Shown here in pieces: positions 6,314 through 60,913 of a stretch of 64,000 nucleotides of DNA (position 1 is its first letter; the number at the start of each line of letters is the position of its first letter). A program made the position numbers and the translations under genes. Source of the DNA: Cafeteria roenbergensis. Lineage: Eukaryota > Sar > Bigyra > Bicosoecida > Cafeteriaceae. The notes below the pieces were generated by a model. That model ran no database searches. It saw nothing but the letters and a program-made list of their open reading frames with translations, and was not told the origin of the DNA. The stretch lies in assembly GCA_008330645.1 (NCBI GenBank), contig VLTN01000045.1:124001-188000 (forward strand), in the 5' to 3' direction.

Positions 6314-6797
6314 TGCCAAGCCTTTTTTGGTTCGTTCACGGCCCCACGCCCGGCAGGTCCCGGCGCCTTTGCCCTCCGGACGCCGGGCCAGGTGCTTGCG
6401 CAGCGGCAACGCCTTCAGCAGAGCTGCTGCTGTGGCTCGAGTGCCCCGGCTGCTCGGCTTCGACAACGAGGAGCTGGCGGCGCCGCCTCCTGTGATGACT
6501 CTCGACAATGGGCAAACTTCTGCATCTGCTAGGTCCGCCAGCACAACACTCATTCTGCGCCTTGGAGGCGCAATGCCCGCGGCGCCGCACACAACAACAA
6601 AACAACGGCTTGGTATCCAGAGCTGCCCAGGCCTCGGCAGGCGACGACTTGCGAGAGCAGTGGACACCGGGACGTCTGGTTGAGGTGGCCAGCGTGCAGA
6701 CTGAGGTATTGAGCTTTTGAGCGTTTCCACCGCCTCCAACAGCCTCAGGGGACTTTGCAAACGACGTCGCTCACATGGCGGTGTCCCTGGGCAGCCA
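6314..6797. other. intergenic, no gene seen
   Basis: This 484-bp stretch lies between the stop of the TPR gene and the proposed start of the large gene; both run on the minus strand. It is less GC-rich than the flanks. Short open frames on both strands lack domain or composition support. It should hold the 3' UTR of the TPR gene and the promoter of the next gene. Confidence 0.5.
6418..6424. promoter_or_regulatory. GCAGAGC candidate promoter element
   Basis: GCAGAGC on the + strand, 105 nt upstream of the proposed start (6313) of the minus-strand gene. It belongs to the recurrent GCTCTGC/GCAGAGC set but is one of the more distant members. Confidence 0.3.
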
Positions 6798-9700
6798 TCA
6801 CGACTCCACCCCTGCCTCAGTGGATGCCTCGCGTGCACGAGTCACGTCTCGAAGCTGCGATGTGATGTCCAGGCTGGCGGTGAACGACGTCAAGTGAACG
6901 CACAGCCTTGACGCAAACCTGTCCTTGCGGAGGTCAAGGTCCTTGAAGAACGTGCCAGCCACTGCGTCAAGCTCGGGCATGCTCGGCCGCGCCGCCTCCT
7001 CCCTGAGCCTCTTTAGGGCCAGCTCGGTCAATTTCAAAGCGGGGTGGCTCGGCCCCAGGCTTTGCTCCTCAATGCCCGCGCATCGAACTAAACACTGTTC
7101 GGCCTCGCCTCTATTCCCGTTCATGCGATGGCACCGTGCCAAAGTGAACAACACAGCTGCGTATGTTGGATGATCCTCACCCAGAGCTGCGCTGAAGATT
7201 GCTCGACAGTTCTCGATGATCTCCAGCGCCTCCCTCGGCTGGCCCAACTGCAAGCAGCACTGTGCCTTTCCCTTGAGCGTGTTCGCCAGGGCAGGGTGGT
7301 CCTTGCCAAGGGTCACGCCCTCGATAAGTGCGGTTTCGTCCAGCAAGCGCTTCGCCTCCTCAGGGCTCTCCAGCTCAAGATGGCAAAAGGCCATCAGATA
7401 CAGCCCGCTTGCTCGCATTGGGTGGGCGTTGTCCAAGTGCTCGTGGTAGGCCTCCTCGTTGGCTTGCAGGAGCTTTAGTGCGCCCTGAAAGTCTCCTCCT
7501 GCCATGCGGCAAACTGCTTGCAGTCGCTGCGTGTTGGCCAGGCCAGGGTGAGACCTGCCCAGCGTGGCCACCTCAATTTTCGCGCACTCGCCAAGGAGCC
7601 GTTCCGCAATGGCAACACAGCCCAGGCAGAGCTGGCACTCGGCGGCTCTGAACATTGCCCCCGCCACCAAGAAGTGGCCTGGGCCCAGGGTTTTGGAGAA
7701 TGCTTCCCTGCACTTGAGCAGGATGCGCAGCGCTGCCCGAAGGTGTCCTTGCGCCATCAGGCACAGCGCCAACTCCTTCCGGGTGCTGATGAATGCAGGG
7801 TGCTCCTTGCCCAGCCTGTGCATTTGAATTCCAGCACATTTGCCGAGCAAATGCCGTGCCTGGTCGTAGCGACCCAGCAGGCGTTCGCACTGCGCCATCA
7901 TGTAGAGCGTGGCTGAGAAGTCTGGGTTGTCCTCTCCCGTCGTGGGGCTCTGGGCAGCCATGCAAGCCTTGAGAAGCTTCGCAGCATCCTTCAGCCGCCC
8001 TCTGACCATGCAGCACTTCGCTTCAATCCGCCAAGCACCGACCATTGCTAAGAGCTGGTCACCAGGAAGCTGCTCCTGGGCTTCCTTGAAGGACGACGGA
8101 ATTTGCGCCGCCTCGGTAAACTCGCCCAGCTCGAGATGGCAAAGGGCCATGTTTGCCAGAGTCAGCGGTAACGAAGGGTGCTTGCAGTGCGCTTGCCCTT
8201 GCGTTCCCTCGAGGATGCGTCTGCACTCCTGCAGCAGGCCCAGGGCGATGCGAAAGTTCCCTCTGGCCATTTCGCACTGGGCCTGCATCCTCTTTGTGTT
8301 TGCAAGCCCCGGATGGTCAGGGCCAAGCGAGGAGGTCTCGATGTCGGCGCATACACAAAGCAGTTCCAGCGCCTTGGTGGTTTCGCCCTTGAGACGGTGG
8401 TATTGGGCCAGCGTGTACAGCGCAGCGGCATACAGGGGGTGCCGTGCCCCAAGAGTTTCCTCGTACACTCGCTTGCAGCTCTCCAAGTCGTTGAACGCGT
8501 CTTCGTAGAGCGCCACGGCCAACTTGCATTGTGCCTGCAACCGAAGCGTGTTGGCGTAGCCAGGGTGGTTCGGCCCCAACGCCTGAGCCTCAATTTCCCG
8601 GCACTGTTGCAGGCATCTGATTGCCGAAGAGTAGTCGCACTTGTCCAGGTGGCACTGGGCCATGGCATACAGAGTCCTGGCGTAGCTTGGATGCTTGCAC
8701 CCTAGGGTCTCCTCTTGGACGTCCAAGCACTTCTGCAGCAACGCCAGGGCCTCGTCAAACTTCCGCTGGTGCCGAAAACACTGCGCCATTGCGCACAGCC
8801 TGCTAGCGACTCGAGGGTGTGCTGTATCGAGCTTCCACGCCTGGATCCGCTCGCAGCGCACGAGCAAATGCATGGCTTGGTCGAAGTCGCGCAGTGCAAG
8901 GGCACACTGGGCCATTCGGACCAGGTGCCGGCCAACCTGGATCGACTCAGGCCCAAACGACACGGCCAGCGTGCTGCAGCACCTTCCCAGTGCGTGAAGT
9001 GCATTGCCGTACTGCGCCAGCTCGATGTAGCACTGTGCTTGCTCTGCCAATGCCTCCGCGACCGCGGGGTTTGCGTGCCGCGTCGCCCTCGGCAGCACGT
9101 CCACCGCAAGCTTCGCCGACAGCAGACCCTCGGCGTATCTGCCCTGCTGCCTTTGGCAACGAGACTTGTTGGTGAGCACCTGGGAAGCTTGCGCGGTCCA
9201 CGAGGCTCCCTGTTTTCGGCAGACGGACTCCACTTTGTCCAGCAGATCCAGCGCGAGAGCGTTGTCCCCCTGCAGCCGGTGGCAACGGGCAGAGAACATG
9301 CGCCATTCCGCAAGCTGGGCGCTGCTCACCTCCGAGGCTGAATGGCAGTCGTCGAGCAAGCTCGCTTCGTGCGTTTGGTCGAGCGCTTGCTGGTACTGAC
9401 CCTTGCAGGCGAGGCACTCGGCCACTGCGAACGTTGCGGAAAGTCTCGAGCAGGGATCAGTCGCGGCCCCGAGCCACTCCCTGGCCAGATCCTCGGCGTT
9501 GCTGGGCTCTCCCAGAACACATAGCTGCCTGGAAAACGTGCGGCAGGCGGCCTGGCGCGTCGGAGAGCTGCACTTGGAGCACCGGGCGGCCAGCGCACGA
9601 TTGCCTCTTTCGATAGCCTGTTTCGCGGCTCTGCGATTCCCCTGCTTGGCGTAGCACTGGGCCAGCTGGGTGTAGACCGCGGCAGGGAGAGACAGGACCG

Positions 9701-12700
9701 TTCCCAGCTCCAGCGGGTCGGTACAGCTGCGAGAGACGCTCGAGAACATTTCCAATGCAGCACAGCTGCGGTTTGTCTCCGCGTAGCATTGGGCTATGCA
9801 GAGCCGGGCAAACGTACTGTTGTGGGCAGCGCAGTGCCGCTGCAGCAGCTCGAGCGCCAGCGCAAAATTCCCTTGCTTCATGTGAATGCGTCCGAGCCTG
9901 AACCAGTCGGGTGTTGGCACAGATGACTCTGCTGATGAGTTACCTCCCTCGGCGACTCTGCGCAGGTGTGCCACCTGTGCGAGCTGCGGGTGGTCGTGTC
10001 CACCCGACTCCCTGAGTGTGTCTTCGCACTCTTTTAGGAGCCCCTCCGCGTCGGCGAGAGACCCCTCGTGCACTTTGCACTCTGCCAGCAGGAGCACCAA
10101 GTCCACGCAGTCGGGGTGCTTGGAGCCGACCACGGGTTCCAGACCCAGCTTGCATTTGTCGAGTAGCTCGGTTGCTTCACCCCAGCGACGGAGTGCCATG
10201 AGTTGCTCCGCCTCGAGGACTTGAATGCCAGCCCATTGCTGCTTTGTCAGACTCGGAAGCAGCGCCGCCATTTCCTTGCTGCGGCCCACCTGACTGAGGG
10301 CCAGCTCGTGCTTTCCTTGCAAGCTCAGGCAGTGGGCTTGCACAAGCGGGAGCCTTGGCTCAGAGCAACGCCAGCAACATCCAGCTTTGGCGCCGCAATC
10401 GGGGCTGCCGCGACGAATCCCCACGGGTCCAGGGTGAGCCGCGCTACCTTTGGGGGTCTGCGTTCCAGCCAGAAGGCCTGCTTCCTGAAGCTGCCGCAGG
10501 GCTTCCTCGGCGTGGCCGCAGTGGGCGAGGAACTCTGCATACCGCAGAACGGGATGAAGGGCCCCGCAAACCGTCGGGTCGGGTCCGTTCTGCAAACTCA
10601 GCTTGGCGAGCACGCCCCGGAGCTCATGCTCCTGCTCCAAGTCCTGGGGACGGGCAGTGAGTTGAGGGAGGATCTGCTCGATGCGCGAAATGAGGCCGAC
10701 TTTGTTGCCCTCCTTGAAAGAAGCGTGCGCCAGCGCTAGGGTTTCCTCGCGAAACGCAGTCGCAGTGCTGCACGTGCCAAACTCTTTCGGGCTGAGAGAG
10801 AAGACTTGTCCAGGGGCCTTGACTCTGGAGCGGACGGTCAGTTGGTGGGACGCCCACACTTGGAGCACCGCTTCCCCTCGGTCGATGAGCAGCTCCCCAA
10901 GGCGCGCTGTTTGCGCACTTGTGAGGTAGCCGCCCTTGACTGCCATCGCTCTCGCTGCGGCGCAGGCCAAGGGCCAGCTCAAGTTCTCGGCCTCCTTGTC
11001 GAGCGCGTCGCCAGCACTTCTGATAAGCGCCTCAATCGCCGATGCAGCCGGCGACCCAGGGGAGGGGAAGCATGTGCACAGCAACGCAAGCTCAGCGCTG
11101 GGCGTCGGGACACGGCTGTCGCCCTTTCCAGAGTGCGATCGATCACCCAGTAGGTCGGATAGAACACGCGCGGAATGGCGAAGCCCGAGGCCGCACGAGT
11201 GAAGGGCCGCTTTGGCACTGTCCCGCACTCGTAGCACACAATCCGCTTGGCCAGGTGAACTCAAAGCAGAGGTGGCTGCCATGACGGACTTTCGCGCGAG
11301 GCCCAAGTTCTCAGATCCCAGTAGGCATTCGGTAGCCGCTTCCAGGGCTTTGCTTTCCTTGGCCTTGAAAGCGTCGTCGGGGGAGACACGAGCAGCCTCG
11401 ACGCGCCTCAACACCTCTGCTGCTTCCGGGCGAAACGTCGCAGTTAAGTGAGGGTGTAGCCAGTAGTCCGAAGCGCGTGCCAGCAGGACCCGAACGCTCC
11501 CGCAAACAGACTCGACGAGAGTCACCCCAGTGCGGCCGCAGAAGGCCTTGGTGTCTGGGCGCCACTGGACCGATTCCATTGCAGGGAGAGCAGGGGGGAA
11601 GGCCACAGTCTCTGAGTCTGCTGTCGCATCCGTGCTGCCGGGCGACGGAGCAACTGCTTTGGACAGTGCCTCGCCAGCCCAAGTCAGCGCATTGGTGCCC
11701 GTCCCACCAGCCTCTGCGACGTCTGTACCCACATCGAGGTCCACAACCCTCAGTCTGCCCTTGCCGTCTTGGCACCGCATCCAGACAACAGCGGTAATGT
11801 GGTCTGTCCTGGCCTTGCCAGCTTCCGGAATGCAGAGACGTGCGGCGTCGAGCAGCAACAGTGAGCCATCGGGCAAGGCATGCAGCTCGACGTCGAAGGG
11901 CAAGGCTCGGCTCGCCGGACCGAGTTTGGAGTCTGGAACTTCTCTTTGGCTGTGGAAGTAGCCGCAGCGTAGCAGCTCCTTGCCCGCGCCCCTGGTGTAG
12001 TAGTGAGCCACATTTTTGATCGCGGGTCTTGTGCTTGGACTGAGGTGGAGCAGCTTCGCAACTTTCCCTGCAACTTCTTCTGCAGCTGCGCAGCTGTGCA
12101 TCGTTTTGCCGCCGTCGCTCGAGCCCACCCTCAGCGAGTCGTCGCTGACTTGGTGGAACGGCTGGCACACCACGCGGACCACAGTGCCTGGCTCGCCATG
12201 TTCGCCCCCGACGGTTTCGTCGACGATGACAGCCGAGTGGGAGGAGAGGCATTCCAGGCCCTTTTGTTGACTGAGCCAGGCCACCATGCCCAGCTCTTGT
12301 TTGGCAGACTTGCCCGCCATGGGATCCTTGCCGTGGAACAGCTCGGGGACGATGGGCACCTTGAAGAACTTGCCGGTTGTTGAGTCCGCCAGTTTGAGAC
12401 CGCCTGCGAGTCCCTTCTCAACCACACGCAGCCCTTCCGCCGACGAAGAGTGATCTATGGCCTCGCTTACCGCATCCACCCATGCTTGTCGGCTTGTTTG
12501 GGGCTCGGGCAGCGCCAGGATGCGTGCAAGGAGGGGCGCCGCGGCTGTCGCAACTCGGCGCAGAGCATCGCAAGCCGCGGAACGCTCAAACATGGCTTGG
12601 CGCTCGTCGGCCCGCTTCCATGCGTGGCTGTCGACAGCAGGCAGCCTGACCTCGGTCTCGGCAGCTGCTGGCGCGTCTTGGCGCGGACGTGTCTCGCCTG

Positions 12701-13007
12701 CGGGCTCGGGGGGGGGCTTGCCAAAAATTCGTTCGATTGCGGTTGTAGCACTGTCGACGAGGCTGCTCGCCGGCTGCCAAGTCATTCCGGCGCGGCCGGG
12801 TACACGGGCTGCTACAGGCAGGCCGCTCTTCCGCTTGCGGCTGGAAGAGGTGCTTGGAGCTTCTCCGCGTGCCAAGGCGCTCGCCTGGACGTACGCAGTT
12901 GAAGCTGTCGTTTGCTGCGGCAAGCTCGCTCGATGCCGCCCTGCTGAGCACAGCCCCCGCTCGTAAATGGATGGCGCTTGCGGAGTGCGTTCATCGGGGG
13001 CATTCAT
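6798..13007 (-). CDS. CLU-like N-terminal domain plus long TPR array (kinesin light chain-type repeats)
   Basis: Single-exon frame of 2069 residues from ATG 13007 (context GCCATGA); a longer version would need a GTG start at 13055 and crowd the neighbouring promoter. Residues 1 to about 170 are disordered. Residues about 190-420 resemble the central domain of clustered-mitochondria (CLU/TIF31) proteins: VGSSDGGKT, a KLLHL helix, and the FDVELHALPDGSLLLLDAAR block. The C-terminal half is a tandem array of about 20 TPR units of about 42 residues with the recurring pattern MAQC..x..G...AL.LL..C..I....LG..HP, as in kinesin light chain and CLU C-termini. A role in protein or RNA scaffolding is inference. 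GC content and synonymous choice are clearly lower than in all neighbours, and there is no intron in 6.2 kb. Confidence 0.85.
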   Translation of the reverse strand: MNAPDERTPQAPSIYERGLCSAGRHRASLPQQTTASTAYVQASALARGEAPSTSSSRKRKSGLPVAARVPGRAGMTWQPASSLVDSATTAIERIFGKPPPEPAGETRPRQDAPAAAETEVRLPAVDSHAWKRADERQAMFERSAACDALRRVATAAAPLLARILALPEPQTSRQAWVDAVSEAIDHSSSAEGLRVVEKGLAGGLKLADSTTGKFFKVPIVPELFHGKDPMAGKSAKQELGMVAWLSQQKGLECLSSHSAVIVDETVGGEHGEPGTVVRVVCQPFHQVSDDSLRVGSSDGGKTMHSCAAAEEVAGKVAKLLHLSPSTRPAIKNVAHYYTRGAGKELLRCGYFHSQREVPDSKLGPASRALPFDVELHALPDGSLLLLDAARLCIPEAGKARTDHITAVVWMRCQDGKGRLRVVDLDVGTDVAEAGGTGTNALTWAGEALSKAVAPSPGSTDATADSETVAFPPALPAMESVQWRPDTKAFCGRTGVTLVESVCGSVRVLLARASDYWLHPHLTATFRPEAAEVLRRVEAARVSPDDAFKAKESKALEAATECLLGSENLGLARKSVMAATSALSSPGQADCVLRVRDSAKAALHSCGLGLRHSARVLSDLLGDRSHSGKGDSRVPTPSAELALLCTCFPSPGSPAASAIEALIRSAGDALDKEAENLSWPLACAAARAMAVKGGYLTSAQTARLGELLIDRGEAVLQVWASHQLTVRSRVKAPGQVFSLSPKEFGTCSTATAFREETLALAHASFKEGNKVGLISRIEQILPQLTARPQDLEQEHELRGVLAKLSLQNGPDPTVCGALHPVLRYAEFLAHCGHAEEALRQLQEAGLLAGTQTPKGSAAHPGPVGIRRGSPDCGAKAGCCWRCSEPRLPLVQAHCLSLQGKHELALSQVGRSKEMAALLPSLTKQQWAGIQVLEAEQLMALRRWGEATELLDKCKLGLEPVVGSKHPDCVDLVLLLAECKVHEGSLADAEGLLKECEDTLRESGGHDHPQLAQVAHLRRVAEGGNSSAESSVPTPDWFRLGRIHMKQGNFALALELLQRHCAAHNSTFARLCIAQCYAETNRSCAALEMFSSVSRSCTDPLELGTVLSLPAAVYTQLAQCYAKQGNRRAAKQAIERGNRALAARCSKCSSPTRQAACRTFSRQLCVLGEPSNAEDLAREWLGAATDPCSRLSATFAVAECLACKGQYQQALDQTHEASLLDDCHSASEVSSAQLAEWRMFSARCHRLQGDNALALDLLDKVESVCRKQGASWTAQASQVLTNKSRCQRQQGRYAEGLLSAKLAVDVLPRATRHANPAVAEALAEQAQCYIELAQYGNALHALGRCCSTLAVSFGPESIQVGRHLVRMAQCALALRDFDQAMHLLVRCERIQAWKLDTAHPRVASRLCAMAQCFRHQRKFDEALALLQKCLDVQEETLGCKHPSYARTLYAMAQCHLDKCDYSSAIRCLQQCREIEAQALGPNHPGYANTLRLQAQCKLAVALYEDAFNDLESCKRVYEETLGARHPLYAAALYTLAQYHRLKGETTKALELLCVCADIETSSLGPDHPGLANTKRMQAQCEMARGNFRIALGLLQECRRILEGTQGQAHCKHPSLPLTLANMALCHLELGEFTEAAQIPSSFKEAQEQLPGDQLLAMVGAWRIEAKCCMVRGRLKDAAKLLKACMAAQSPTTGEDNPDFSATLYMMAQCERLLGRYDQARHLLGKCAGIQMHRLGKEHPAFISTRKELALCLMAQGHLRAALRILLKCREAFSKTLGPGHFLVAGAMFRAAECQLCLGCVAIAERLLGECAKIEVATLGRSHPGLANTQRLQAVCRMAGGDFQGALKLLQANEEAYHEHLDNAHPMRASGLYLMAFCHLELESPEEAKRLLDETALIEGVTLGKDHPALANTLKGKAQCCLQLGQPREALEIIENCRAIFSAALGEDHPTYAAVLFTLARCHRMNGNRGEAEQCLVRCAGIEEQSLGPSHPALKLTELALKRLREEAARPSMPELDAVAGTFFKDLDLRKDRFASRLCVHLTSFTASLDITSQLRDVTRAREASTEAGVES

Positions 13008-13075
13008 GGCGGGAACACCCGCGGCTCTTCGGCTCGGGAGTGGCGCAGCCCGCACAGCCTGTGCAGCAGACGGCG

Positions 13076-13082
13076 GCTCTGC
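13076..13082. promoter_or_regulatory. GCTCTGC element in the TPR/NDUFA2 shared promoter
   Basis: Core of GGCTCTGCCGG (13075-13085). It ends 80 nt before the NDUFA2 start codon and lies 69 nt upstream of the TPR gene start, midway in a 154-bp head-to-head intergenic region. Confidence 0.45.
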
Positions 13083-13161
13083 CGGGCGTGCCGAATGGCC
13101 TCAGAGCAGCAGCGTCGGCACGAGCGCGGGCGCCACCAGGCTCGCTGCTGCTGCTGCCGCC

Positions 13162-15000: not shown

Positions 15001-15132
15001 CCATCCACGCCTGCCCGCTTGCCGGGCGCGCTCGACGAAGAACCCTCCCCCTTGCTCGTCGACGGCGAGGCGCTTGCTGCCGAGTGGCAGTGTCGCGCCG
15101 TCGCCATGGCACCGGCCGCCCAGCAGGGCGCG

Positions 15133-15139
15133 GCTCTGC
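15133..15139. promoter_or_regulatory. GCTCTGC element upstream of the RPAP2-like gene
   Basis: Ends 73 nt before the RPAP2-like start codon, within the 211-bp head-to-head region shared with PXMP4 (133 nt from that start). Confidence 0.4.
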
Positions 15140-15211
15140 CGCGGGAGTGTGCTCCTCGCAGAAGCCTTCGCAGGGCCGGCCCGCACTCGGCGCTCGGGCG
15201 AGCCGTCCGGC

Positions 15212-19643: not shown

Positions 19644-20325
19644 ACTCAGCCACGTCCAAACTGAGCAACGCGCCGTGCACGCGAAGCCATCGGCAAAGGG
19701 ACGCTCGCGGCTCGCTCGCGCGCCGGCCTCTCTCCCCCGATCTACCTCGCAAGGCTGCCCGCCGCGCCCCATGGGCCCAGGACCGGGCGGACCTAGCGCT
19801 GACGAGAGTGGCTAGATGTTGGCGACGGGCCGGGTCCAGCAGATCGAGAGGGTTCAAGTGCGGACACTGACTCTGCGCGGTTTGGCTTGCGAGGTTCCTC
19901 GCCCCCCCCCGACTCCCCGGACGCGAATGCATCGCCGCCGCGGCGGCCCCACCCGAGAGAACAAGGCAAATAAAGCCAAGGGCCAGGGTAGAAGCGCGGA
20001 GCGGGCCCCGTCCGCGCGCAGGAGGGCCGCAGTTGCGGCTCGGCGGTCGAAGTCGCCCCGAGCTGTTGCCGGGCGTTGCATTTGCTTGTGGCCAGTTGGG
20101 GCTTGTGGCGTGCGCCCCGACGCCCGCCCCGCCCCCTCCCCCGCCCACACAGCCCGCCCACACACCGCATGATCCTGCCAGGCCGGGCAGACGTCCACGG
20201 CAGCGCCCTGCGGGCGCGCCAGGGGGCAGAGCGCAGAGCGGTAACGTCGGCAGCAGGGCACGGCGAGCGCGCCGAGCCTGCACTCTTGGCTCTCGAAGCA
20301 CCCTAGGGACCTCCTTTTCCCCGGT
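19644..20325. other. intergenic, 682 bp
   Basis: Lies between the RPAP2-like stop and the P-type ATPase start, both on the + strand. Open frames across it on both strands lack homology or coding-like make-up. No tRNA fold was convincing. It carries two abutting GCAGAGC copies near the ATPase. Confidence 0.5.
20226..20239. promoter_or_regulatory. tandem GCAGAGC element upstream of the P-type ATPase
   Basis: Two abutting copies (20226-20232 and 20233-20239). The nearer one ends 87 nt before the start codon. Confidence 0.4.
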
Positions 20326-24286: not shown

Positions 24287-24301
24287 CCCCCCCCCCCCCC
24301 C
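24287..24301. repeat. homopolymer C15
   Basis: Run of about 15 C in the 267-bp convergent region between the ATPase and the dynein light chain gene. Confidence 0.8.
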
Positions 24302-24448: not shown

Positions 24449-25274
24449 CTAGCGGCTGAACAGCGCCATCCCGCACACGGTGACGATGCAGTACATGGAG
24501 GCGGTCTCGCGCGCTTTCTCCGTGGGCCACGTGATGGCCACCAGCCCGTCGCTGACGCCGTCAAACGAGGCAACCGGGGTGCTGCTCACGCCCGCGCCTG
24601 TGTCTTGCATGATCACGCACGTCACTGCGAGGAGCCGGGGGCAGGCAGTGCTCGAGCGGCAGGCCGGGTCAAGAGCGCAACTTGCTCCCTGGGTCGCCCG
24701 CTGCAGCTGTGGACGCCCGGAAGCACGGCCCCACCCCGCCCCGCGCGCTGGCCTCCGTACTGTCCACGCTGGTGACCTCACCCAGGTACTTGAACGGCTT
24801 GCCCAGGTCCGCGAGCGCCTCGGTGGACTTTTCCGTGATGCTCGTCATCCAGCCGGCAACCTTGTCCTCTTCCCACTCCTTCTCGTTCAGCTCGTCGTGG
24901 ACGATCTGCGGGAACCACCGCCGTGCGCGTGCCACTCGTTGCGCGATCGAGTGGGCGGGTTGCACGGGCGTGGCCCGGGCTTGGACGGCCCGTTTGCAGC
25001 GCGTCAGCCTGTGCCCCACCCAGCCTGCTGGCAATGCTCACCTTCCCCACGACGCCCTCAACCTCCTCGTTCACGAATGCTGACTGCAAGGAGCGTGGGG
25101 AGGAAACGCGGCACGGGCGCGGGGCGGGAAGGCAGCCGTCGCGTCGGGCACGGTGGCGGGCGGCCGTTGCATCCGCTGCCCGCTCGGGCGTGGTATGGCT
25201 GCAGCGGCCCCAGGGCCGCGGCAGCAATGCAGTGTGGCCCTCACCTCATCGCCCCCACCGCCGATGTCGTCCAT
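24449..25274 (-). CDS. DYNLT1: Tctex-1-type dynein light chain
   Basis: Four exons (25274-25245, 25083-25042, 24905-24782, 24624-24449) join in phase to 123 residues. The protein matches DYNLT1 along its length: SAFVNEEVEGVVGK, a variable helix, W.TSITEKSTEALADLGKPFKY, then VTCVIMQDTGAGV (animal VTCVIMQKNGAGL) and ETASMYCIVTVCGM. The human protein has 113 residues. It is a subunit of dynein complexes that binds the intermediate chain and also serves axonemal dynein. Exon 3 to 4 joins precisely inside the conserved KYxVTCVIMQ segment, which confirms the splice model. Introns are 161, 136 and 157 nt. Confidence 0.92.
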
Positions 25275-26347: not shown

Positions 26348-26645
26348 CGCGGCAAGGCCCTCCGTGGGCGGGTGGCGGCGGCGGCGGCCGTGCCTGGGCG
26401 CGCTGGCCAGTCGCGGGCCGGCAGAGGCTCTGCCGGCCGAGGCTTTGCGCGTCGATCGCGAACGCGCGGCCGCTCGCTGCACTCACGACCCGCTTCGAAG
26501 CCTCCGCTTCGTGCTTTTAGCGCCCTCTCGTCCTTGTATGACCCGCGTCTTCGAGGACGGTTGCCAGCATCACTCTCTGTGATACTTCTGCGAGCCATCC
26601 AGCTCGCGCCCAACTGAATCAACTCAAAACTCTCTTCCCTCAGCC
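26348..26645. promoter_or_regulatory. head-to-head promoter region (mS38-like / inositol phosphate synthase)
   Basis: 298 bp separating two divergent start codons. It contains the perfect palindrome at 26416-26438. Confidence 0.45.
26416..26438. promoter_or_regulatory. palindromic GCTCTGC element
   Basis: GGCCGGCAGAG, one G, then CTCTGCCGGCC: an 11-bp perfect inverted repeat with a 1-nt centre, starting 69 nt upstream of the mS38-like start. It combines both orientations of the recurrent GCTCTGC motif. Confidence 0.5.
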
Positions 26646-28850: not shown

Positions 28851-29347
28851 TGGCGCCGCCGTCTGCTGCCTGGCTCGCCGAGGCTGCTGCGTGACCCGCG
28901 CGCTGCGGGAGCGACGCGGTTCTCGCGCCCCCCGCCGTCACTGGCGGGGGCTGCGAGACCGACGTTGGTCCTTTGCCGTCGCGCCTGGCCGCGCAGCCCG
29001 CTTGCCGGGAGTGCTTGCCCGCCCGCGTGGTTTTGCGAAACGATTTGGCACGGCCCTGAGCCCCAATTTTGCCCCCGGAGCTCGAACGACTGCACCACGC
29101 ATTCGGCCATTCCGCTTTCGCAACATACGCGCGCCGTCCCGCGCGCCCAGCGTTGGCACGCTCGATGGGGTGTGGGCTTGGCCAATTCGCCGAGGGTTTG
29201 CGCCTGCAGAGCCGGTACCGTCGGGCGTGCCGTCGCGGCAGCTTTGCCCGGAAATCGCGCGGCCGGCCGCTCGCGGGCCATGCACACCCAGGGCCAGTCG
29301 CTGCAACGACTGCGGCACGAACCCGCCTGAGCGTGGTGGCTTGGAAG
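28851..29347. other. intergenic, 497 bp
   Basis: Between the synthase stop and the carboxypeptidase start. The carboxypeptidase frame is open back to 29069, but the composition before 29348 looks non-coding. GCAGAGC occurs at 29206-29212, 136 nt before the start. Confidence 0.45.
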
Positions 29348-33494: not shown

Positions 33495-33501
33495 GCTCTG
33501 C
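33495..33501. promoter_or_regulatory. GCTCTGC element upstream of the J-protein gene
   Basis: Lies 82 nt upstream of the J-protein start codon (33413), in the 182-bp gap before the next minus-strand gene. Confidence 0.45.
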
Positions 33502-33595
33502 ATCGCGGCGACCATTTGTGGGGCGACGCTGCACCTGCGCACACTCTGCCGGTACACAGCAACGGGGCTGCCGGCACAACGGCACCACAGCACAT

Positions 33596-35967: not shown

Positions 35968-35974
35968 GCAGAGC
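35968..35974. promoter_or_regulatory. GCAGAGC element upstream of the mS45-like gene
   Basis: Ends 93 nt before the start codon at 36067, in the region shared with the divergent kinase gene. Confidence 0.35.
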
Positions 35975-45299: not shown

Positions 45300-45796
45300 C
45301 GGCAGCAGCGATTGCGGACCGAGCGTTGGGCTCGCCCTCCCACGCCTCCAGCGCCCACCCGTCCAGCAGCAGGCAAGTTTGCTGCCTAATGGGCCAGGCA
45401 CCGCCCTGCAACGCCGGACCGGGCTGGCCGAGGGAGTCAGCGGGCCGACTTGTGCCGTAGCGCCCGACCGTTGCCGCGAACTCTGCCAGAGCCAGCGACT
45501 CGTTGATGCCCCGCGACAGTGGACGAGCGGCCGCAATGGCACTTTGTGCTCCAAAGGCCGGCGGGTGAGCCCTGCCGCAGTGCGATGCGGGAGTGCCACT
45601 GGCAAGGGGGCTCTTCAGCCGGGGCAGCTTCGTGCAGCGGTCGTGGTGCTCGCTGTGCGCATTCCCGTTGGCCGCCCCCCCGGCTCCACGGCCAGCCTGC
45701 TGGCTCGCCTTCCAAGCTCCCGAGCGTGCCGTGATTGTTTGCGCTCGCTGACGCTCCGCAGACGTGCGGCTTAGCCAGAGCTGAGGAGCCGCCGAG
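45300..45796. other. head-to-head intergenic region
   Basis: 497 bp between the starts of the F-box gene (-) and the zinc-finger/CAP-Gly gene (+). It contains CTCTGCCAGAG at 45481-45491, a degenerate palindrome of the recurrent motif. No gene is seen. Confidence 0.4.
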
Positions 45797-51824: not shown

Positions 51825-52325
51825 GCCCCCGATCGATGAAGGACTGTGCGATGGACTTTTGCGCGTGCAGCCGCCCCTCCGGGAGGCTCAGAGTGGTGCC
51901 GGACGGTCGAGATGCGGCCTGCGGACGAAATGTTTCACTTTCAGCAAGCAAAGCGTGGCTGTGGCGCCCCCGCCCCATGCCCGGATGGATGAAGGGCCGA
52001 ACGATGTGGGCGCGTTCGCGGCTTTCTTGCTGTGGCAAAGCCGCTCGAATGCGCGCCTTGCCTCACGAGCACGGCCAGCTGAGTCGGCAAGCGGAAATCG
52101 GCGCGTGCCTGCGTCGGCGCGCCCTGCACCACGACTTGGCCGACGCGCTGAGCTCCACGGCGCCCATAAAGTCATGCATATCCCCGACGAATGGCTGCAG
52201 CTTCCGAGCTGGCTGCTCGCGCAGCGGATGCAGCCCGGTCGAGCTGCAGAGCGCGCGCAAGATTACAAAGCGGTCCTGCGCAAGTGTCGCACTCAAGCAG
52301 GCGCGGCTCGCAGGCGCCGACCGCG
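51825..52325. other. head-to-head intergenic region
   Basis: 501 bp between the divergent OGG1 and PhoD-like starts. It carries GCAGAGC near the PhoD side. Open frames here show no domain. Confidence 0.45.
52246..52252. promoter_or_regulatory. GCAGAGC element upstream of the PhoD-like gene
   Basis: Ends 74 nt before the start codon at 52326. Confidence 0.45.
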
Positions 52326-55253
52326 ATGGGGAGGCGCATTCTACTGGCAGTGGCTGTGGCATGGATGGCCGCCTCTGCGCTGGGGCAGCAGGGCTCTCGC
52401 CTGCCCGTCGCAGACTGGCGGCGAGGCCTGCTGGTCATGGGGGCGGTCACTCGCACCTCAGCCCGCTTCATTGCTGAGGCGGCCAGCACCGCCCCAGACG
52501 GCGCGGAGTACGACCTCACTGTTGTGGAGCTGGATGCCTCGAAGGAGGACACCAGCGGCCTGGACGGCACGCTTGAGCAGCTTCCCGGCGCCGTGGTGCT
52601 GCGCACTTCGGGCGTGCGCCTTGCGCACCGGCCGCGGGTGAGCCTTGCACTGCGAACACGCACCACATCTCTGCCTGATCATGATCCTGTTGCGCTTGGG
52701 TGGCTGCCTTGTTTCGCCGCGAGCGGGCCTGTCGCTGTTCCGCCTCGAAGTCGCATTCCGTTCGCAGGCGATCGAGTTGCAGCAGCTGAGCCCTGACTCA
52801 TGGTACCAGGCTTGCGTCTCGAGCATGGGTTGTGTTGTGTTCAAGACGTTTCCCGGCGAGACCAAACAGCCTGCCCCGCGCACGTGCCGAGGCGGGCTGG
52901 CCTGCGGACAGCACAGCACTTTCTTCGTCAGTTGCGACCGCTGGGTTGAGGACGGCGACGACGATATGTGGGCCACGTTCATCGGGAAGGAGCAGCTTGG
53001 CCCGGGCAGCATCCGCAGCGTGAACCGCACCGCGGCGGCGCCACAGGACACGCCTGCGCTTGCGTTTGTGCACCTGGGAGATCAGGTGTATATGGACGGA
53101 GTCGTCGCGGCAGCGCTCGCTTCCACAGAGTCGCTCCCCCTCGATGCTCTCGTAGAGCGCTTCCGGGCATTCTACCGCGCCTCCTGGGGCCGCCCTGCCA
53201 TGCGGCAGGTGCTGCGCCGCGGCGCACACTTCTTGTGAGGGTTGTGCCGGGACCGGCCGGCAGCAGGCACGCGCACGCAGCCCTGCACCGTCAGCGGCAA
53301 CTGGGCCGCAGCCCTCGAGCACCAACGCTGGGGTGCGGTCGCCCCGTGGCTGCCCCGCGCTGACTGCCGTGCCCCGGCTGTGTCTCACCGCAGCCGTTTG
53401 TGTCGGCCGGTGCCCCTCAGTTGCCTCCAGGGGCGGGCAGCCGAGATGGCTGCTCTGCCACCCCCCTCCGCCCTGTCCCCTCAACTTCTCTCACCCGCTC
53501 CCTGTTCAACCCGCCCTTCCGCAGCCTGGCCGATGACCACGACTTCTTCAACAACGCCCGCGCCGACCACCGGAGCCTCGCTCACGAAATCGCCGGCGAG
53601 CACGATGCCCGCCTCTTCATCCGCCACACCGTTAGCGGCAACGTGCACTTCAACGATATTGCTTTGGCAGGATACATTGCGTTCGCAGAGTACCAGCTCC
53701 AGACCCAGCGCGACATCTCTGGGCTTGACGAGACCCAGCCACGGACGCTGTATGTGACCGTTGGCTCAACGCCCGCTTCAACACCAGCGTCCATCCCAGA
53801 GGCAGACGCCGGCGCCGCCCCCGAGGCCCTTTCCACAGCGGAGGCAGATTCGGTCTTCAACTCCTCTCTTCTGGACGCCGAGATCTTCCGGCACGTCACT
53901 GACACGTACAACCTCACGGGCACGGGGGAGGCAGCGGCCGAGTTCACCATGGCGCCCGAGACGGCGCTCGCGCCGTCCGAGACCAGCCACTCCTTCCAGC
54001 TGGGGACCACCGCCTACCTGCTGATGGACTCGCGGATCCCCCGCCTCTTCGCGTCCGACCCCAACGGGGACGAGCACCCCATCCTTTCGAACGCAACGCT
54101 GCTGGCCGTGCTGCGCGAGCTGCGCGCGTTCGAGCAGGACTCCGCCGTGTCGGAGGTGGTGGTGGCCGCTTCCATCCCGCTGGTGTGGATGGACGAAGTG
54201 TTTGCACAGCTCGCAAACTTTTGGGAGAAGGAGCGGTACACTGCCCACCCGGTCGAGCAGGCGGGGTTCGTAGCCCTTCTGGAGCTGCTGGCCGCATCGT
54301 CCAAGACGCACCTGCTCGTGGGAGGAGACGTGCACGTGCAGGCTCAGTCCTGGGCCTGCCGCAGCAGCTCCGTGCTGATGGATACCCCCGTGTACGCCAA
54401 GGCCGCGGCGCTCTTGGCGGGCGTGCTCCGGGAGGCTGGCCACAACTCGGCGGCCGCTGCGGTGGCGGCGTCGGCGACCAACCCCGACGCGGTGCTCGCG
54501 GCTGTGGCTGGCGTGATGGCTGGCCACCCCGTCCGGCCCCGCAGAGACGCGTGCCTCACGCAGGTGGTAACCAGCGGTGTCACAGTCGGCAGCTCCACCC
54601 GCGGCGAGCACATCGTGGCGCTCTACAACGGCGCCCTCCGCTGGGTCAACCACATCCGTGTCGGCCCGTGGGCTGGAAGGCTGTCTGACATTGCAATGGT
54701 CAACAACTACCTTCGTATTGACTCGGGAGACGCCGCCACAGAGGCCGCGGTGCGCAGCGAAACGAGCCTGTGGTGGAGTCCAGCCTCCCCAGACAGCGCT
54801 GCCCCCGCCCGGTGGGAGAAGAGCGAGCTGTACTCGCCGCTCTCTTGCACAGCTCTGCGGTCCGGCCCCGAGGGCGCTGCGGTGGCCTGGATCGGTGCCG
54901 CCAACGCCTCGGCGCCGCGGTTCGACGGCTCGGTCGAGGAGTGGGAGCGAGCCCTGCGCCTCCAGGCCAGCAGCGTGCGTCATGCGCAGGGCGTGAACGC
55001 GGTGGCCGACGACCAGGACGGCGTCGAGTGCGACTGCGGGGCGGTGCCTGCCTCCAGGGTCACTCTGTCCTCCTGCCGGCGTCGCTCCAGAACCGACGAG
55101 AACATGGCGCAGGACCTGGTGGACTTTAGCAAGCCGGTGTGGACCAACATCGGGATCATCCTGCTCGTGGTCGTCGTCGTTGCGTACCAGGCCGTGTGGT
55201 TTGTCCTTGCTCGGGTCGTGGCTGTCGCTGGAGCTGCGACTGGTGTGTGGTAG
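52326..55253 (+). CDS. PhoD-like metallophosphatase, secreted and membrane anchored
   Basis: Exons 52326-52637, 52768-53234 and 53525-55253 join in phase to 835 residues. A signal peptide (MGRRILLAVAVAWMAASALG) is followed by an N-terminal PhoD-type domain and the phosphatase core: AFVHLGDQVYMD, ADDHDFFNNARADH and the C-terminal metal motif LLVGGDVHVQAQSW. PhoD enzymes are Ca/Fe-dependent phosphodiesterases or alkaline phosphatases that release phosphate from organic esters. Near the C-terminus a hydrophobic segment (IGIILLVVVVVAYQAVWFVL) should anchor it, leaving the enzyme on the outside. Several NxS/T sites lie in the core. A phosphate-scavenging role is inference. Confidence 0.87.
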
Positions 55254-55728: not shown

Positions 55729-56017
55729 TCAGAGCAGATCGTCATCAAAGTCCCCCTCGTCGTCCGCCGTCGGCTTGTCGGCATCCGCAGCCGGCGCCTC
55801 GTCGTCAGCAGCGGGCGCCTCGTCGTCGGCAGCCGGCATGTCATCGTCGGCAGCCGGCGCCTCGTCGGCGGCGGCCGGCTCCTCGTCGTCAGCAGCTGCA
55901 GCGGCACCGGCCGCCGGCTCGTCGGGAGATGCTGCGAGCGCGGCGTCGTCGGCATCGAGCTCCAAATCGCTGTCATGGGCGTTGAAATCGTCGTCCTCGC
56001 CCTCGCCCTCGCCCTCG

Positions 56018-56052
<35 letters not shown>

Positions 56053-57656: not shown

Positions 57657-57990
57657 GGTCCTCTCTGCTGGAGTGCAGCGAGTGTGGGTGGCGGGCGATT
57701 GCTCACGGCTTGCGCGCCATTCCGCAGCGCGGCTCTGCTGCAGGCTGCAGTTGAAGCATCGAGTGCGCCGTGGGCGAGCGCGCTGCCTCGCCCGAAGGCA
57801 CGTCAGCGGCCGCCCGCCAGCAAGACACTGCGGCCTCGCCACAGCCACGGCCTGGGACCACACAATGCGCCGAATGGCCACGCAGCCAGAGCCGCAGACC
57901 CCGGGGATTTCGCGCAGCCCCGGAGCAGAGCGGACGCCAGCCAGGGCAACCAGCGGACCGAGCCCTGCGCCTCCGCAGGTGGCCGGCCCC
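57657..57990. other. intergenic, 334 bp
   Basis: Between the EttA-like stop and the proposed gamma-SNAP start, both on the minus strand. It holds the GCTCTGC element at 57732; nothing else is seen. Confidence 0.4.
57732..57738. promoter_or_regulatory. GCTCTGC element upstream of gamma-SNAP
   Basis: Lies 76 nt upstream of ATG 57656; this spacing agrees with the other genes and supports that start. Confidence 0.4.
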
Positions 57991-60591
57991 TTATGTGAAG
58001 TTCTTGGCGGCGGCGGAGCGCTGGCTGCCGTCCAGGCGCGCCTTGGCTCTGGCGTGAAGCTCCGGGTGGTTCTCCTTGCGGTAGCGCTCGTACGCGGAGA
58101 AGGAGCCGGGGAACCAGACGACGTCGCCCTCGCCCTCGAACGACACTGTGTGCGTGCAGATCCTGTCGAGGAAGAAGCGGTCGTGGCTGACAATGAACGC
58201 GCAGCCGTTGTACTCCTCGAGGGCCTCCTCCAGGGAGCGCAGGGTGTCGACGTCGAGGTCGTTGGTCGGCTCGTCCAGGATGAGCACGTTGCAGGGGCGC
58301 TTGAGCGTGCGTGCCAGGTGGACGCGCGACCGCTCGCCGCCCGACAGGGCCTTGACGGGCTTCTTGGCCATGGGGCCGAGGTTGAACTTGGACAGCCAGG
58401 CCATGACAGGGACGGGCCGGGAGAGGCCGACATCAATCTCCGTCAATCCTTCCGAAATGACCGACCCGACTGACTCCTCGGGGGGCAAGTAGCGAGACTG
58501 CTCGACGTGCCCGAGCTGGACGAGCTTGCCAACCTCAATCTCGCCCGAGTCCGGCTGCAGCTCCCCGGCGATGAGACGCATCAGAGTTGACTTGCCCGTG
58601 CCGTTGGGCCCCACCACGCCGACGATGGACCCGGGGGCCAGGTTGAACGACAGCTTCTTGATGAGCGTGCGCCCGTCCGGGATGGTGACGCAAATGTCCT
58701 TCATCCGCACGATCGGGGAGCCAATGCGCGGGGCGGGCGGGATCGCGATGGCGCCGGACAGGAAGCGCTTCTCGGACCGCAGGCGCATGTCGTCCTCCTT
58801 GGCGGTCTCGAACGCCTTGATTCGGGCCTTGCTCTTCTTCTGCTGGCCCTTGGTGCCCTGCGAGCAAGCGGGCGCATTGAGAGGGGCAGCGCGGGTTCAG
58901 ACGGCGGCGCGGATACGGTCGGCGGCGCGGATCCGGTCGGCGGCGCGGATCCGGTCGGCGGCGCGGATCCGGTCGGCGGCGCGGATACGGTTGGCGGCGC
59001 GGATACGGTCGGCGGCGCGGATACGGTCGGCGGCGCGGATACGGTCGGCGGCGCGGATACGGTCGGCGGCGCGGATACGGTCGGCGGCGCGGATACGGTC
59101 GGCGGCGCGGATACGGTCGGCGGCGCGGATACGGTCGGCGGCGTGAATAAGGTCGGCGGCGTGAATACGGTCGGCGGCGCGAGGCAGGGCGGATACGGTC
59201 GAGCGAAGCTCATCGCCCCGGCCCGGCCCACCCCCGACAAGGGGCGCAAGCCGAGCCCTCCCGCGTTCGCCCCCGCAGCGCAACACCTTGTCCCCTGCCC
59301 CCCCCGCCCCCCCCGCCTCTGGCCCGGGGCCTTGGCGCGTCGCTCACCTGGCGAATCCACTCGAGCTCCTCCTGCATGGCCCGCACTCGTTTCGCGTCCG
59401 TCTTTGCCTCTAGCGCCATTCGCTGCTGCTTCTTGTCCAGCCAGGTGGAGTAGTTTCCGGCGTACGCAAAGAGGTTCGCCCTGTCCACCTCCAGGATCCA
59501 GCCGGCGACCTGGTTGAGGAAGTACCGGTCGTGGGTGATTGCGAGCACGGTGCCCCTGTAATTCCCCAGGTAGTCCTCGAGCCAGCGAACGCTCTCGGCG
59601 TCGAGGTGGTTGGTGGGCTCGTCTAGCAGCAGCACGTCAGGCTGCTCCAGCAGCAGGCGGCACAACGCCACTCTGCGCTTCTCCCCGCCGGACAGGCTGG
59701 CGACGTCGGCCGAGTCGTCCGGGACGTTGAGCGCCCCCTTCGCGATGGCGACGAGGTGGTCGAGGCTCCAGCAGTCCAGGGCGTCGATCTGCTCCTGGAC
59801 CTCGGCTTGCTCCGCCATCAGCTGCGGGGCGGCAAGGCAAGGCAAGGGCGGGGGCGGGGGCGAGCAGGGGAAGTGGCGCCGCGGCGGGGGCGAGCAGGGG
59901 CACGGCCGCGGCGAGCAGGAGCACGGCCGGGATGCGCGGAACGGCAGCACGCGCGAGGCAGGCGGCTGGGGCGCTCGGCAATTGCAGGCGCGGCCGGGCG
60001 CGACGGCCGTCGCACCTTGTCGAAGTCGGCGTCAGGGTCGGCCATGGCCTCCGAGATGGCGTTGAAGCGGTCCAGCAGGTCCGTCTTGAACCGCAGGCCT
60101 TCCATGATGTTTCCGTGCACGTCCTTGGTCGGGTCCAGCTCAGGCTCCTGGGCCAGGTGGCCGATGCGCAGGCCGTCTTTGCGCCACACGTCGCCGTCGA
60201 ACTCCCTGTCAGCCCCCGCGAGCATCTTGAGCAGCGTCGACTTGCCCGCGCCGTTAGGGCCCACGATGCCGATCTTGGCACCGTCCAGGAACGACGCCGA
60301 CACGTCCTTGAAGATGACGCGGTCGCCGGGCAGCACCTTGGTCACCCCGTTCACTGTCATGACCTGCTCCGTGGACGCGTACGTCGGTTGCGCGCCCCCG
60401 GCCCCGCCCGAAGCCCACCTCGCATGGGCACCCCCGCTTCCCGCCTCTCCCCACACCGCAGAGGCCAGCCCAAGCAGGCTGGTCGCTGCGGCGGGCGCAA
60501 AAGTCGGCCGGGCAACTCGCGCACACCGCAAGCGGGCGGCCTGAGCGGCACAGCCGGCCCGCGACCCGGCGCGCGCCGCTGCTCGGAGCAT
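57991..60591 (-). CDS. ettA: EttA-type ABC-F ATPase with mitochondrial presequence
   Basis: Exons 60591-60016, 59821-59348 and 58857-57991 join in phase 0 to 638 residues. After about 75 residues of presequence (MLRAAARAGSRAGCAAQAAR, Arg/Ala-rich) the two ABC domains follow bacterial EttA closely: GPNGAGKST near 111-119, PDADFDK, LSGGEKRRVALCRLLLEQPD, LLLDEPTNHLDAESVRWLED, ITHDRYFLNQVAGWILE, ELEWIRQGTKGQQKKSKARI, GPNGTGKST, LSGGERSRVHLART and DEPTNDLDVDTLR. EttA binds the ribosomal E site and gates entry into elongation according to ATP level. Here it probably acts on organellar ribosomes. The frame open beyond 60591 would need a GTG start. Introns are 194 and 490 nt; the second carries a minisatellite. 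Confidence 0.93.
58903..59200. repeat. 18-bp minisatellite, 15 full copies, in an intron
   Basis: Unit GGCGGCGCGGATACGGTC repeats without gaps from 58903 to 59172, with variants (GATCCG in copies 2-4, GTGAATAAGG and GTGAATACGG in copies 14-15), then a degenerate copy to about 59200. It lies wholly within the 490-nt second intron of the EttA-like gene. Because 18 is a multiple of three, it is open on both strands (a repeated Ser-Ala-Ala-Arg-Ile-Arg reading), but splicing of the conserved host frame shows it is intronic. Confidence 0.92.
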
Positions 60592-60913
60592 ACCGGCAAG
60601 CCCGCCGCCTGCAAGTGGGCTCTGGTCAGCCCCCGAAGGCACCGGCGCACGCGCTTGAGCAGGGAACTGCAGAGCTCATGGGCAATCGCAGCCGCGGCAA
60701 CCCGTGTCCGACGGCCAGCTTGTCGCCAGCGCGCTGGACGCGGCACAGCAGTGGGCTTAACCGACCCACAAGTGGCCGCCCCTCCCCAACTGGACTCGGC
60801 CGGCGCCTTTGCCTGGCCTCGCGCCCCGCTGGCCGCGTCCCCAGCCAGCACTGCGAAGGTGCAAGCGCGCGCTCCGAGTCTCTCGCGGGCAACGACACAA
60901 GCGCTGGTCCAGC
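60592..60913. other. head-to-head intergenic region
   Basis: 322 bp between the divergent EttA-like and histidine kinase starts. It holds GCAGAGC at 60669-60675. No gene is seen. Confidence 0.45.
60669..60675. promoter_or_regulatory. GCAGAGC element upstream of the EttA-like gene
   Basis: Lies 78 nt upstream of the EttA-like start codon (60591). Confidence 0.45.

Follow-up and report, generated by a model that had tools for sequence, protein, structure and literature searches.

The closest parallels to the motif discussed here come from yeast, where the general regulatory factors Reb1, Abf1, Rap1 and Cbf1 recognise short, sharp sites that lie upstream of transcription starts, in either orientation, and are common between divergent genes; several such factors divide the task. 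Cafeteria roenbergensis, a marine unicellular predator with a genome of 36.3 Mb and 70% GC, is a bicosoecid, and we know of no promoter study in that group. It serves as host to CroV and mavirus, and as a model in the study of giant viruses and virophages. Among stramenopiles, promoter elements called INR, FPR and DPEP have been described in oomycetes, where TATA boxes were not detected, according to the sections of PMC3599244 that treat them. The same sections describe INR (YCAYTYY) and FPR as AT-rich, give DPEP as SAASMMS, and report that the elements are forward-biased, are located either at the start site or some 26 nt beyond it, and occur each in 7-18% of genes, with an orientation bias of 1.8 for FPR and DPEP and of 5.9 for INR+FPR (PMC3599244). 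In Cafeteria itself, the promoter motif of CroV late genes and of mavirus (type 4 EMALE) is the AT-rich TCTA of viral genes, as stated in the part of PMC8547959 that concerns it.

The motif studied here is GCAGAGC, or GCTCTGC on the opposite strand. Of its 21 single-base variants, GCAGAGT alone remains enriched, which gives the consensus GCAGAGY. It resembles the sites of the yeast general regulatory factors in being short, sharp, present in both orientations and frequent between divergent genes; unlike them, a single word covers 31 of the 34 sampled divergent promoter regions of Cafeteria. The yeast-type word TTACCCG itself is found in 2 of the 34 divergent regions and in none of the 31 tandem ones. 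Proximal boxes of the CCAAT/NF-Y kind are likewise used upstream and in both orientations, with a different sequence, and CCAAT is not enriched in the promoter regions of our sample (8/34 divergent, 9/31 tandem and 9/34 convergent regions). As in oomycetes (PMC3599244, in the sections cited), these are TATA-less stramenopile promoter regions: TATAWA occurs in none of the 65 divergent and tandem ones. GCAGAGY matches neither YCAYTYY nor SAASMMS as these are given there, and differs from the AT-rich FPR (PMC3599244). Counts of YCAYTYY within 60 nt of 103 ATGs are 8 sense and 4 antisense, with 1, 2 and 4 sense copies in the later bands; it is present in 27/65 promoter regions vs 9/34 convergent ones (p = 0.10), and the related TCANTYY in 18/65 vs 2/34 (p = 0.008). 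GCAGAGY and the TCTA described in PMC8547959 are both promoter-type motifs from one organism, with different sequences. TCTA is not enriched in the host promoter regions sampled (6/34 divergent, 6/31 tandem, 8/34 convergent), and, near the 103 ATGs, has 6 sense copies at up to 60 nt vs 0 at 61-120 nt.

The analysis covers a window of 64 kb (the whole stretch presented here) and 27 readable stretches of 10 kb taken from other parts of the same genome, picked without regard to GCAGAGC; the DNA analysed in letters amounts to about 0.33 Mb, less than 1% of the genome. Genes were called by a home-made gene finder trained on these sequences, which handles both strands, introns and splice signals, and is blind to the motif. 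Its start codons are partly wrong: of the eleven starts assigned by the sequence-only reading, it reproduces six (ATGs at 15212, 20326, 26347, 33413, 36067 and 57656) and differs on five, namely those of the left-edge gene (6229), the TPR and NDUFA2 genes, the PhoD gene (52365) and the EttA gene (60360). In what follows, starts and names are “read” when they come from the sequence-only reading, and “called” when they come from the gene finder. The called genes beside divergent regions are largely genuine; when the longest exon was scanned in 40 of the 54 genes that flank these regions outside the window, 23 of the 40 had a Pfam match at E <= 1e-4. Two earlier predictors had been discarded: a one-strand gene finder with loose intron penalties, which over-fused genes, and a codon model without introns, which misplaced about half of the window starts, judged by eye, and matched just three of the eleven read starts (20326, 33413 and 36067). 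Tandem pairs were dropped as a source of clean single promoters, some of them being probably split gene calls.

The eleven motif-to-ATG distances given by the sequence-only reading were all confirmed, with an ATG in place each time. At the left edge of the window, GCAGAGC at 6418..6424 (plus strand) lies upstream of a minus-strand gene whose start is called at 6229 and read at 6313, 105 nt from the latter. GCTCTGC at 13076..13082 (minus strand) stands between a divergent TPR gene (13007, minus; TPR repeats by Pfam) and a gene read as NDUFA2-like (13162, plus), 69 and 80 nt from the two; the gene finder mis-started both. The copy at 15133..15139 (GCTCTGC, minus strand) separates a gene starting at 15000 (minus), with a sub-threshold Pfam match to Tim17, from a divergent gene read as RPAP2-like (15212, plus), at 73 nt from the latter. 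Two abutting copies of GCAGAGC at 20226..20239 (plus strand) precede the P-type ATPase gene (20326, plus; Cation_ATPase_N match) by 87 and 94 nt. GCTCTGC at 26427..26433 (minus strand) lies between divergent genes read as mS38-like (26347, minus) and MIPS (26646, plus), at 83 and 215 nt (80 nt from mS38-like as read), and GCAGAGC at 29206..29212 (plus strand) is 136 nt upstream of an M14 carboxypeptidase gene (29348, plus; Peptidase_M14 match). The J-domain gene (33413, minus; DnaJ match) has GCTCTGC at 33495..33501 (minus strand), 82 nt upstream, and a second copy in the variant form ACTCTGC at 33543-33549. GCAGAGC at 35968..35974 (plus strand) lies between a protein kinase gene (35785, minus; Pkinase match) and a divergent mS45-like gene (36067, plus; sub-threshold Bot1p match), 93 nt from the latter.

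In the right half of the window, the variant ACTCTGC (GCAGAGT on the minus strand) at 45480..45486 stands between a divergent ankyrin gene (45245, minus) and a C2HC zinc-finger gene (45797, plus). GCAGAGC at 52246..52252 (plus strand) is flanked by OGG1 (called at 51746, minus; OGG_N match) and a divergent PhoD-like gene (plus; read at 52326, called at 52365), 74 nt from the read start of the latter. GCTCTGC at 57732..57738 (minus strand) precedes the gamma-SNAP gene (57656, minus; SNAP match) by 76 nt, with a second exact copy at 57925-57931 in the same intergenic region. Finally, GCAGAGC at 60669..60675 (plus strand) lies between an EttA-like ABC protein gene (minus; read at 60591, called at 60360; ABC_tran match) and a divergent gene read as a histidine kinase (60914, plus), 78 nt from the read EttA start. 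The motif had been thought to be confined to about half of the genes; this does not hold, as MIPS, OGG1, the histidine kinase and one ankyrin gene share a copy, or a GCAGAGT, with their divergent neighbour.

On the sampled stretches, the motif is enriched and is concentrated in the regions that hold gene starts, where it usually stands in single copy, in either orientation, with sharp base specificity and no TATA boxes. In the window, both strands together contain 65 copies of the exact word, vs 35.9 +/- 5.8 in 100 dinucleotide shuffles. Outside the window, it is found in 23/27 divergent, 12/25 tandem and 2/28 convergent regions and in 13/137 introns, a concentration between divergent starts and a rarity between convergent ends that uphold, on independent stretches, the earlier suggestion of a promoter element. 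With the window included, the fractions are 29/34, 17/31, 3/34 and 19/179 for the exact word, and 31/34, 20/31, 5/34 and 21/179 for GCAGAGY, so that 3/34 divergent and 11/31 tandem regions are without it. The comparison is stable: among regions matched in length (100-600 nt), GCAGAGY is present in 26/29 divergent vs 4/30 convergent ones, and six alternative settings of the gene finder give 19-20 of 24 divergent vs 3 of 23-24 convergent regions for the exact word outside the window. Density per kb upstream of starts is 0.50 at 1-50 nt, 3.85 at 51-120 nt, 2.52 at 121-200 nt and 1.49 at 201-330 nt; elsewhere it is 0.72 in coding sequence, 0.51 in introns and 0.19 between convergent genes, and control 7-mers made of the same letters stay at about 0.3 everywhere. 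Divergent regions contain one copy of GCAGAGY in 24 cases out of 34, two in 6, three in 1 and none in 3.

A de novo EM search of 82 upstream regions in the other stretches, a check suggested beforehand, yields gGCAGAGCcg, from the seed CAGAGC as well as from dissimilar seeds such as CAGGCC and CGCTGC; on the stretch further upstream, no such motif appears among the seven best. When 7-mers are ranked by position (60-110 nt vs further upstream), GCAGAGC comes 5th under a scoring that gives an advantage to rare words. On held-out halves, the positional rise is only modest in a loose 7-bit PWM scan, which blurs the signal. The dyad GGC-AGA-GCC was considered as the true site and rejected: its flanks are weak, the GCAGAGT variant breaks its right arm, and the full GGCAGAGCC is present in just 11/34 divergent regions.

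According to the sequence-only reading, the motif precedes about half of the starts by 70-110 nt, with eight of the eleven clustered at 69-82 nt. The enrichment replicates; the proportion does not, since outside the window only about 20% of starts (17/82) have the exact word at 69-110 nt. Other 42-nt bands there contain 0 (0-41 nt), 8 (27-68), 9 (111-152), 8 (153-194), 7 (195-236), 2 (237-278) and 5 (270-311) of the 82, and in the window the gene finder gives 7/21 starts at 69-110 nt, including one that it wrongly placed within the TPR frame. The motif proves far commoner when the unit of counting is the promoter region rather than a band of distance. A fixed spacing of 69-82 nt was dropped, as nothing singles it out: distances to the nearest start, computed without a 160-nt cut, have a median of 115 nt and quartiles of 79-202 nt, and the motif centre falls at 66-86 nt for 13 of the 66 copies. 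Counts of the motif relative to any ATG over the whole genome give 13,769 at 63-87 nt vs 13,080 at 163-187 nt, an excess of 5.3% or 689 copies for a Poisson standard deviation of about 164. This excess is supportive but weak, because the near/far counts of a reversed nonsense pattern are 662/691 and 684/558, one of the two control pairs deviating as well; such raw counts are too diluted to decide.

One rival reading makes GCAGAGY a directional core promoter element, of the Inr or TSS-anchored type, that the basal transcription machinery would recognise at a constant distance from the site of initiation. Copies do peak at 60-104 nt from the ATG, with few in the final 45 nt, and neither TATA nor CCAAT is enriched in the same regions. 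There may be a mild preference for one orientation: relative to the nearest start there are 33 GCAGAGC for 21 GCTCTGC, and 31 sense vs 16 antisense copies at 61-180 nt (about p = 0.04), a size comparable to the 1.8 given for FPR and DPEP in PMC3599244. However, both orientations are in use, as had been noted, and any overall bias is small, if there is one (p = 0.13); for INR+FPR the same source gives 5.9 (PMC3599244). Moreover, the broad quartiles do not fit a fixed distance, and the aligned copies show, two flanking bases aside, only weak single-position signals at offsets -99, +63, +66 and +74, of at most 0.21 bits. We regard a core element as unlikely.

A chromatin boundary, insulator or replication-origin site, merely located in promoter regions and with no action on initiation, would account for the usual single copy whatever the number of genes served (24/34 divergent regions) and for the two orientations. 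The motif's presence in tandem upstream regions, at 61-122 nt from the downstream start in 9/25 of those outside the window, and its scarcity at the boundaries between convergent genes make such a site improbable. The 3' splice consensus of this genome ends in CGCAG, which contains GCAG, and the motif might therefore act at the RNA level, in 5'UTRs or in the acceptors of 5'UTR introns; with both orientations present and background densities in the 50 nt before the ATG and in introns, we give this very little credence, and a splice-acceptor origin was dropped on these densities. There is, lastly, the possibility of chance, combined with the selection by eye, in this window, of the best among many 7-mers and distance bands. 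The word is indeed frequent in coding DNA, as had been remarked (171 copies in 239 kb), and the discarded codon model showed no enrichment outside the window, with the 7-mer at 60-110 nt of 5/74 starts, at 160-210 nt of 4/74 and at 260-310 nt of 1/74, and with the motif absent from the top words printed. Yet in stretches chosen blind to the motif, GCAGAGC ranks first of all 7-mers for divergent vs convergent regions (p = 2.2e-9, runner-up 1e-4), and it is recovered there de novo: chance is already refuted by this replication, and its remaining probability is close to nil.

The motif is present in about one copy in most of the sampled divergent gaps and seldom where genes end, so it probably serves as a docking site for some protein by which gene starts are marked. 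Our main reading, to which we give a probability of about 70%, is that RNA polymerase II promoters are marked genome-wide by one sequence-specific DNA-binding protein, with GCAGAGY, in either orientation, as its putative site. A single protein would recognise the word, mostly present once per promoter region and most often with about 65-200 bp between it and the nearest start codon downstream. This protein would act in the manner of a general regulatory factor, clearing a nucleosome-free stretch and helping to set where initiation occurs, to one side of the motif or to both, with transcription starting between the motif and the ATG; one copy would usually serve both genes of a divergent pair.

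It is tempting to go further, and to conjecture that nearly every protein-coding promoter, and essentially all divergent ones, would be defined by a single GCAGAGY and one lineage-specific general factor that replaces TATA and CCAAT, with one site firing both ways and much of the genome organised as bidirectional promoter units. We hold this stronger statement tentatively, at slightly less than even odds. A text search of open papers in PMC turned up no report of GCAGAGC/GCTCTGC as a promoter motif, and the papers there that combine GCAGAG with promoters do not, by title, concern protists. A single widespread element, if true, would provide an anchor for gene annotation, and would make host promoters separable by sequence from the viral ones, with their TCTA. 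The manner in which a protist genome of 70% GC, with no TATA boxes, marks the starts of its genes would then become directly testable.

Gene arrangement is a stronger signal for the presence of the heptamer GCAGAGC (reverse complement GCTCTGC) than distance to the start codon. Outside the window, the exact word is present in 23 of the 27 regions between divergent genes, in 12 of the 25 tandem and 2 of the 28 convergent regions, and in 13 of 137 introns; with the window included, the counts become 29/34, 17/31, 3/34 and 19/179. At the density of coding DNA, chance alone would place it in 8.7 of the 34 divergent regions. When all 7-mers outside the window are ranked by their presence in divergent versus convergent regions, this one comes first, with p = 2.2e-9, and the runner-up stands at 1e-4. 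With the gene finder run under six alternative settings and genes under 300 nt dropped, the exact word is in 19-20 of 24 divergent regions outside the window, versus 3 of 23-24 convergent ones.

Cafeteria roenbergensis strain BVI now bears the name C. burkhardae. The genome sampled here, of which the window is G000:C45:124001-188000, totals 36,303,456 bases in 167 contigs; an excerpt of PMC6972860 gives the BVI assembly 36,327,047 b in 170 contigs, 70.1% GC and 8,483 proteins. For replication, 28 stretches of 10 kb were picked, by position only, on 20 other contigs, and 27 were analysed: one, L017 (G000:C15:30001-40000), is entirely N and was left out. The letter-level analysis covers less than 1% of the genome, and its gene starts are predictions of a two-strand gene finder that models coding, intron and splice states, was trained on the 27 stretches and the window, and does not have the motif as an input. 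It learned by itself a tight splice consensus, GTGAG...CGCAG (donor GTGAG, acceptor CGCAG); among its introns of up to 400 nt, the median length is 168 nt. Divergent regions outside the window are flanked by 54 predicted genes, of which a subset of 40 was scanned by longest exon: 23 of the 40 match a Pfam family at E <= 1e-4 (7, 6, 4 and 6 in batches of 10), although one of these matches, to ubiquitin, is under Pfam's own cut-off.

The word tolerates very little change. Compared with convergent and intron DNA, it is enriched 4.0-fold in promoters (54 vs 23 copies), and 20 of its 21 one-base variants are at or near background, with ratios of 0.0-2.0. The sole enriched variant is GCAGAGT, at 4.6-fold (12 vs 4 copies); since it behaves like the original, the word is better written GCAGAGY. 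In this form, and with the window included, it is found in 31 of 34 divergent, 20 of 31 tandem and 5 of 34 convergent regions, and in 21 of 179 introns. The difference holds in regions of equal length (100-600 nt): 26/29 divergent vs 4/30 convergent, or 20/23 vs 3/24 outside the window only.

Position also carries a signal. Outside the window, 17 of 82 starts have the exact 7-mer 69-110 nt upstream; other bands of the same width hold it in 0, 8, 9, 8, 7, 2 and 5 of 82 cases. Comparing 60-110 nt with bands further upstream, again outside the window, ranks CAGAG first among 5-mers, CTCTGC second among 6-mers and GCAGAGC fifth among 7-mers (19 vs 7 and 4), with a score that favours rare words. 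The density of the exact word is 0.50/kb in the last 50 nt before the start, 3.85 at 51-120 nt, 2.52 at 121-200 and 1.49 at 201-330; CDS has 0.72/kb, introns have 0.51 and the regions between convergent genes 0.19, and control words of the same letters stay at about 0.3/kb in every compartment. The sequence-only reading would have fallen with a density as high at 200-300 nt as near the start: the density at 201-330 nt is in fact far below the near-start one, yet above that of coding DNA. De novo discovery, which that reading had also proposed, returns the same word: expectation maximization (EM) on the 82 outside regions (-160 to -30) yields gGCAGAGCcg, best from the seed CAGAGC and also from CAGGCC, CGCTGC, GCTGCC and CGGCGC, and in the control stretch (-310 to -180) gGCAGAGCcg is not among the seven best motifs. 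For 66 copies, the median distance to the nearest start is 115 nt, with quartiles at 79-202.

A whole-genome count compared words with any ATG at 63-87 nt with those at 163-187 nt, most ATGs not being starts. It gives 6,881 vs 6,599 in one orientation and 6,888 vs 6,481 in the other, an excess of 689, or 5.3%, over a far band that is itself not motif-free in promoters; nonsense-control pairs give 662/691 and 684/558. The sign is right and the size, by estimate, of the order that local densities would give; the count lends weak support to promoter proximity.

In the window, the word occurs 65 times, against 35.9 +/- 5.8 in shuffles, and much of these copies is coding, as the sequence-only reading had warned. 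That reading placed the word 69-110 nt upstream of 11 of about 21 starts, and all eleven of its motif-to-ATG distances are present. The gene finder recovers its ATG for six starts (15212, 20326, 26347, 33413, 36067 and 57656) and differs for five (left edge, TPR, NDUFA2, PhoD and EttA). The left-edge start at 6313 is questionable: the gene finder favours 6229, and the frame from the 6313 ATG runs for only 63 codons. Pfam backs the TPR, P-type ATPase, J-domain, OGG1, gamma-SNAP, ABC, kinase, M14, ankyrin, CAP-Gly and C2HC genes; matches are sub-threshold only for the mS45-like (Bot1p) and Tim17-like genes, and the names NDUFA2, RPAP2, mS38, MIPS, PhoD, Tctex-1 and histidine kinase are those of the earlier reading. 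The TPR gene (6798-13007) sits where the GC content of the window is lowest (0.626 at 8001-12000) and is mostly unrecognised by the codon model; it may thus be of recent or foreign origin.

Counted per promoter region rather than per distance, GCAGAGY is present in all seven divergent pairs of the window: TPR/NDUFA2 (13076), Tim17-like/RPAP2 (15133), mS38/MIPS (26427), kinase/mS45 (35968), ankyrin/C2HC zinc finger (45480, the variant), OGG1/PhoD (52246) and EttA/histidine kinase (60669). The region that the gene finder assigns to TPR/NDUFA2 (12484-12970) falls within the TPR frame and is a miscall; it also holds a copy, so that correcting it leaves the divergent count unchanged. MIPS, OGG1, the histidine kinase and an ankyrin gene had been listed as lacking the motif, but each shares a copy with its divergent neighbour, by a reading of the gene map rather than a new statistical test. 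Further copies lie in the promoters of the left-edge gene (6418), the P-type ATPase (20226 and 20233), the M14 carboxypeptidase (29206), the J protein (33495) and gamma-SNAP (57732). The minus-strand gene at 24449-25274 has no GCAGAGY in the 431 nt upstream.

Copy number tracks the region, not the number of genes served: the 34 divergent regions hold one copy in 24 cases, two in 6, three in 1 and none in 3. Elsewhere, a tandem repeat at G000:C1:513842-516297 has six near-identical matches about 475 bp apart, with GCTCTGC in each. Read with respect to the nearest start, the exact word is GCAGAGC 33 times and GCTCTGC 21 times (p = 0.13), and at 61-180 nt upstream GCAGAGY is sense in 31 cases and antisense in 16; both orientations are therefore used, perhaps with a mild sense preference, in keeping with the mixed orientation first noticed.

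Flanks aligned on the motif show only weak single-position signals, at offsets -99, +63, +66 and +74. In the 65 divergent and tandem regions, TATAWA is absent, and neither CCAAT nor TCTA shows enrichment. The oomycete INR word, YCAYTYY, occurs 8 times in sense within 60 nt of 103 ATGs, versus 1, 2 and 4 times in later bands; on these few copies, it is a possible initiator signal. Another INR-like word, TCANTYY, is found in 18 of 65 promoter vs 2 of 34 convergent regions. A second promoter-enriched word, CGATCGA, occurs 14 times in 29.0 kb of promoter regions, against 7 times in 50.0 kb of convergent and intron DNA and 24 times in 239 kb of CDS; 8 of 13 CGATCG-motif pairs sharing a region are spaced 10-38 nt. 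CA/TG-repeat-like words are convergent-enriched (ACACAC outside the window: 15/28 convergent vs 1/27 divergent regions, p 3.5e-5), possibly as a 3'-end signal.

The nearest described stramenopile elements that we found are INR, FPR and DPEP of oomycetes, which an excerpt of PMC3599244 describes as forward-biased, near the start site and each in 7-18% of genes; GCAGAGY is none of these three. The same excerpt mentions unnamed Phytophthora motifs that lie 75-300 nt upstream and favour neither orientation, and the promoter motifs in an excerpt of PMC8547959 concern only the viral elements of Cafeteria. Our searches of open-licence PMC papers found no prior description of GCAGAGY as a promoter motif.

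The overall pattern is closest to the site of a general DNA-binding factor, with the general regulatory factors of yeast as the most familiar parallel. A single factor would bind GCAGAGY and hold the promoter region open, with initiation proceeding on both sides of the bound site. A zinc-finger protein would suit as a candidate binder, because the motif consists of two adjoining triplets, GCA-GAG, and one more base. In kind, GCAGAGY is a proximal promoter element of this organism, and probably a general one.
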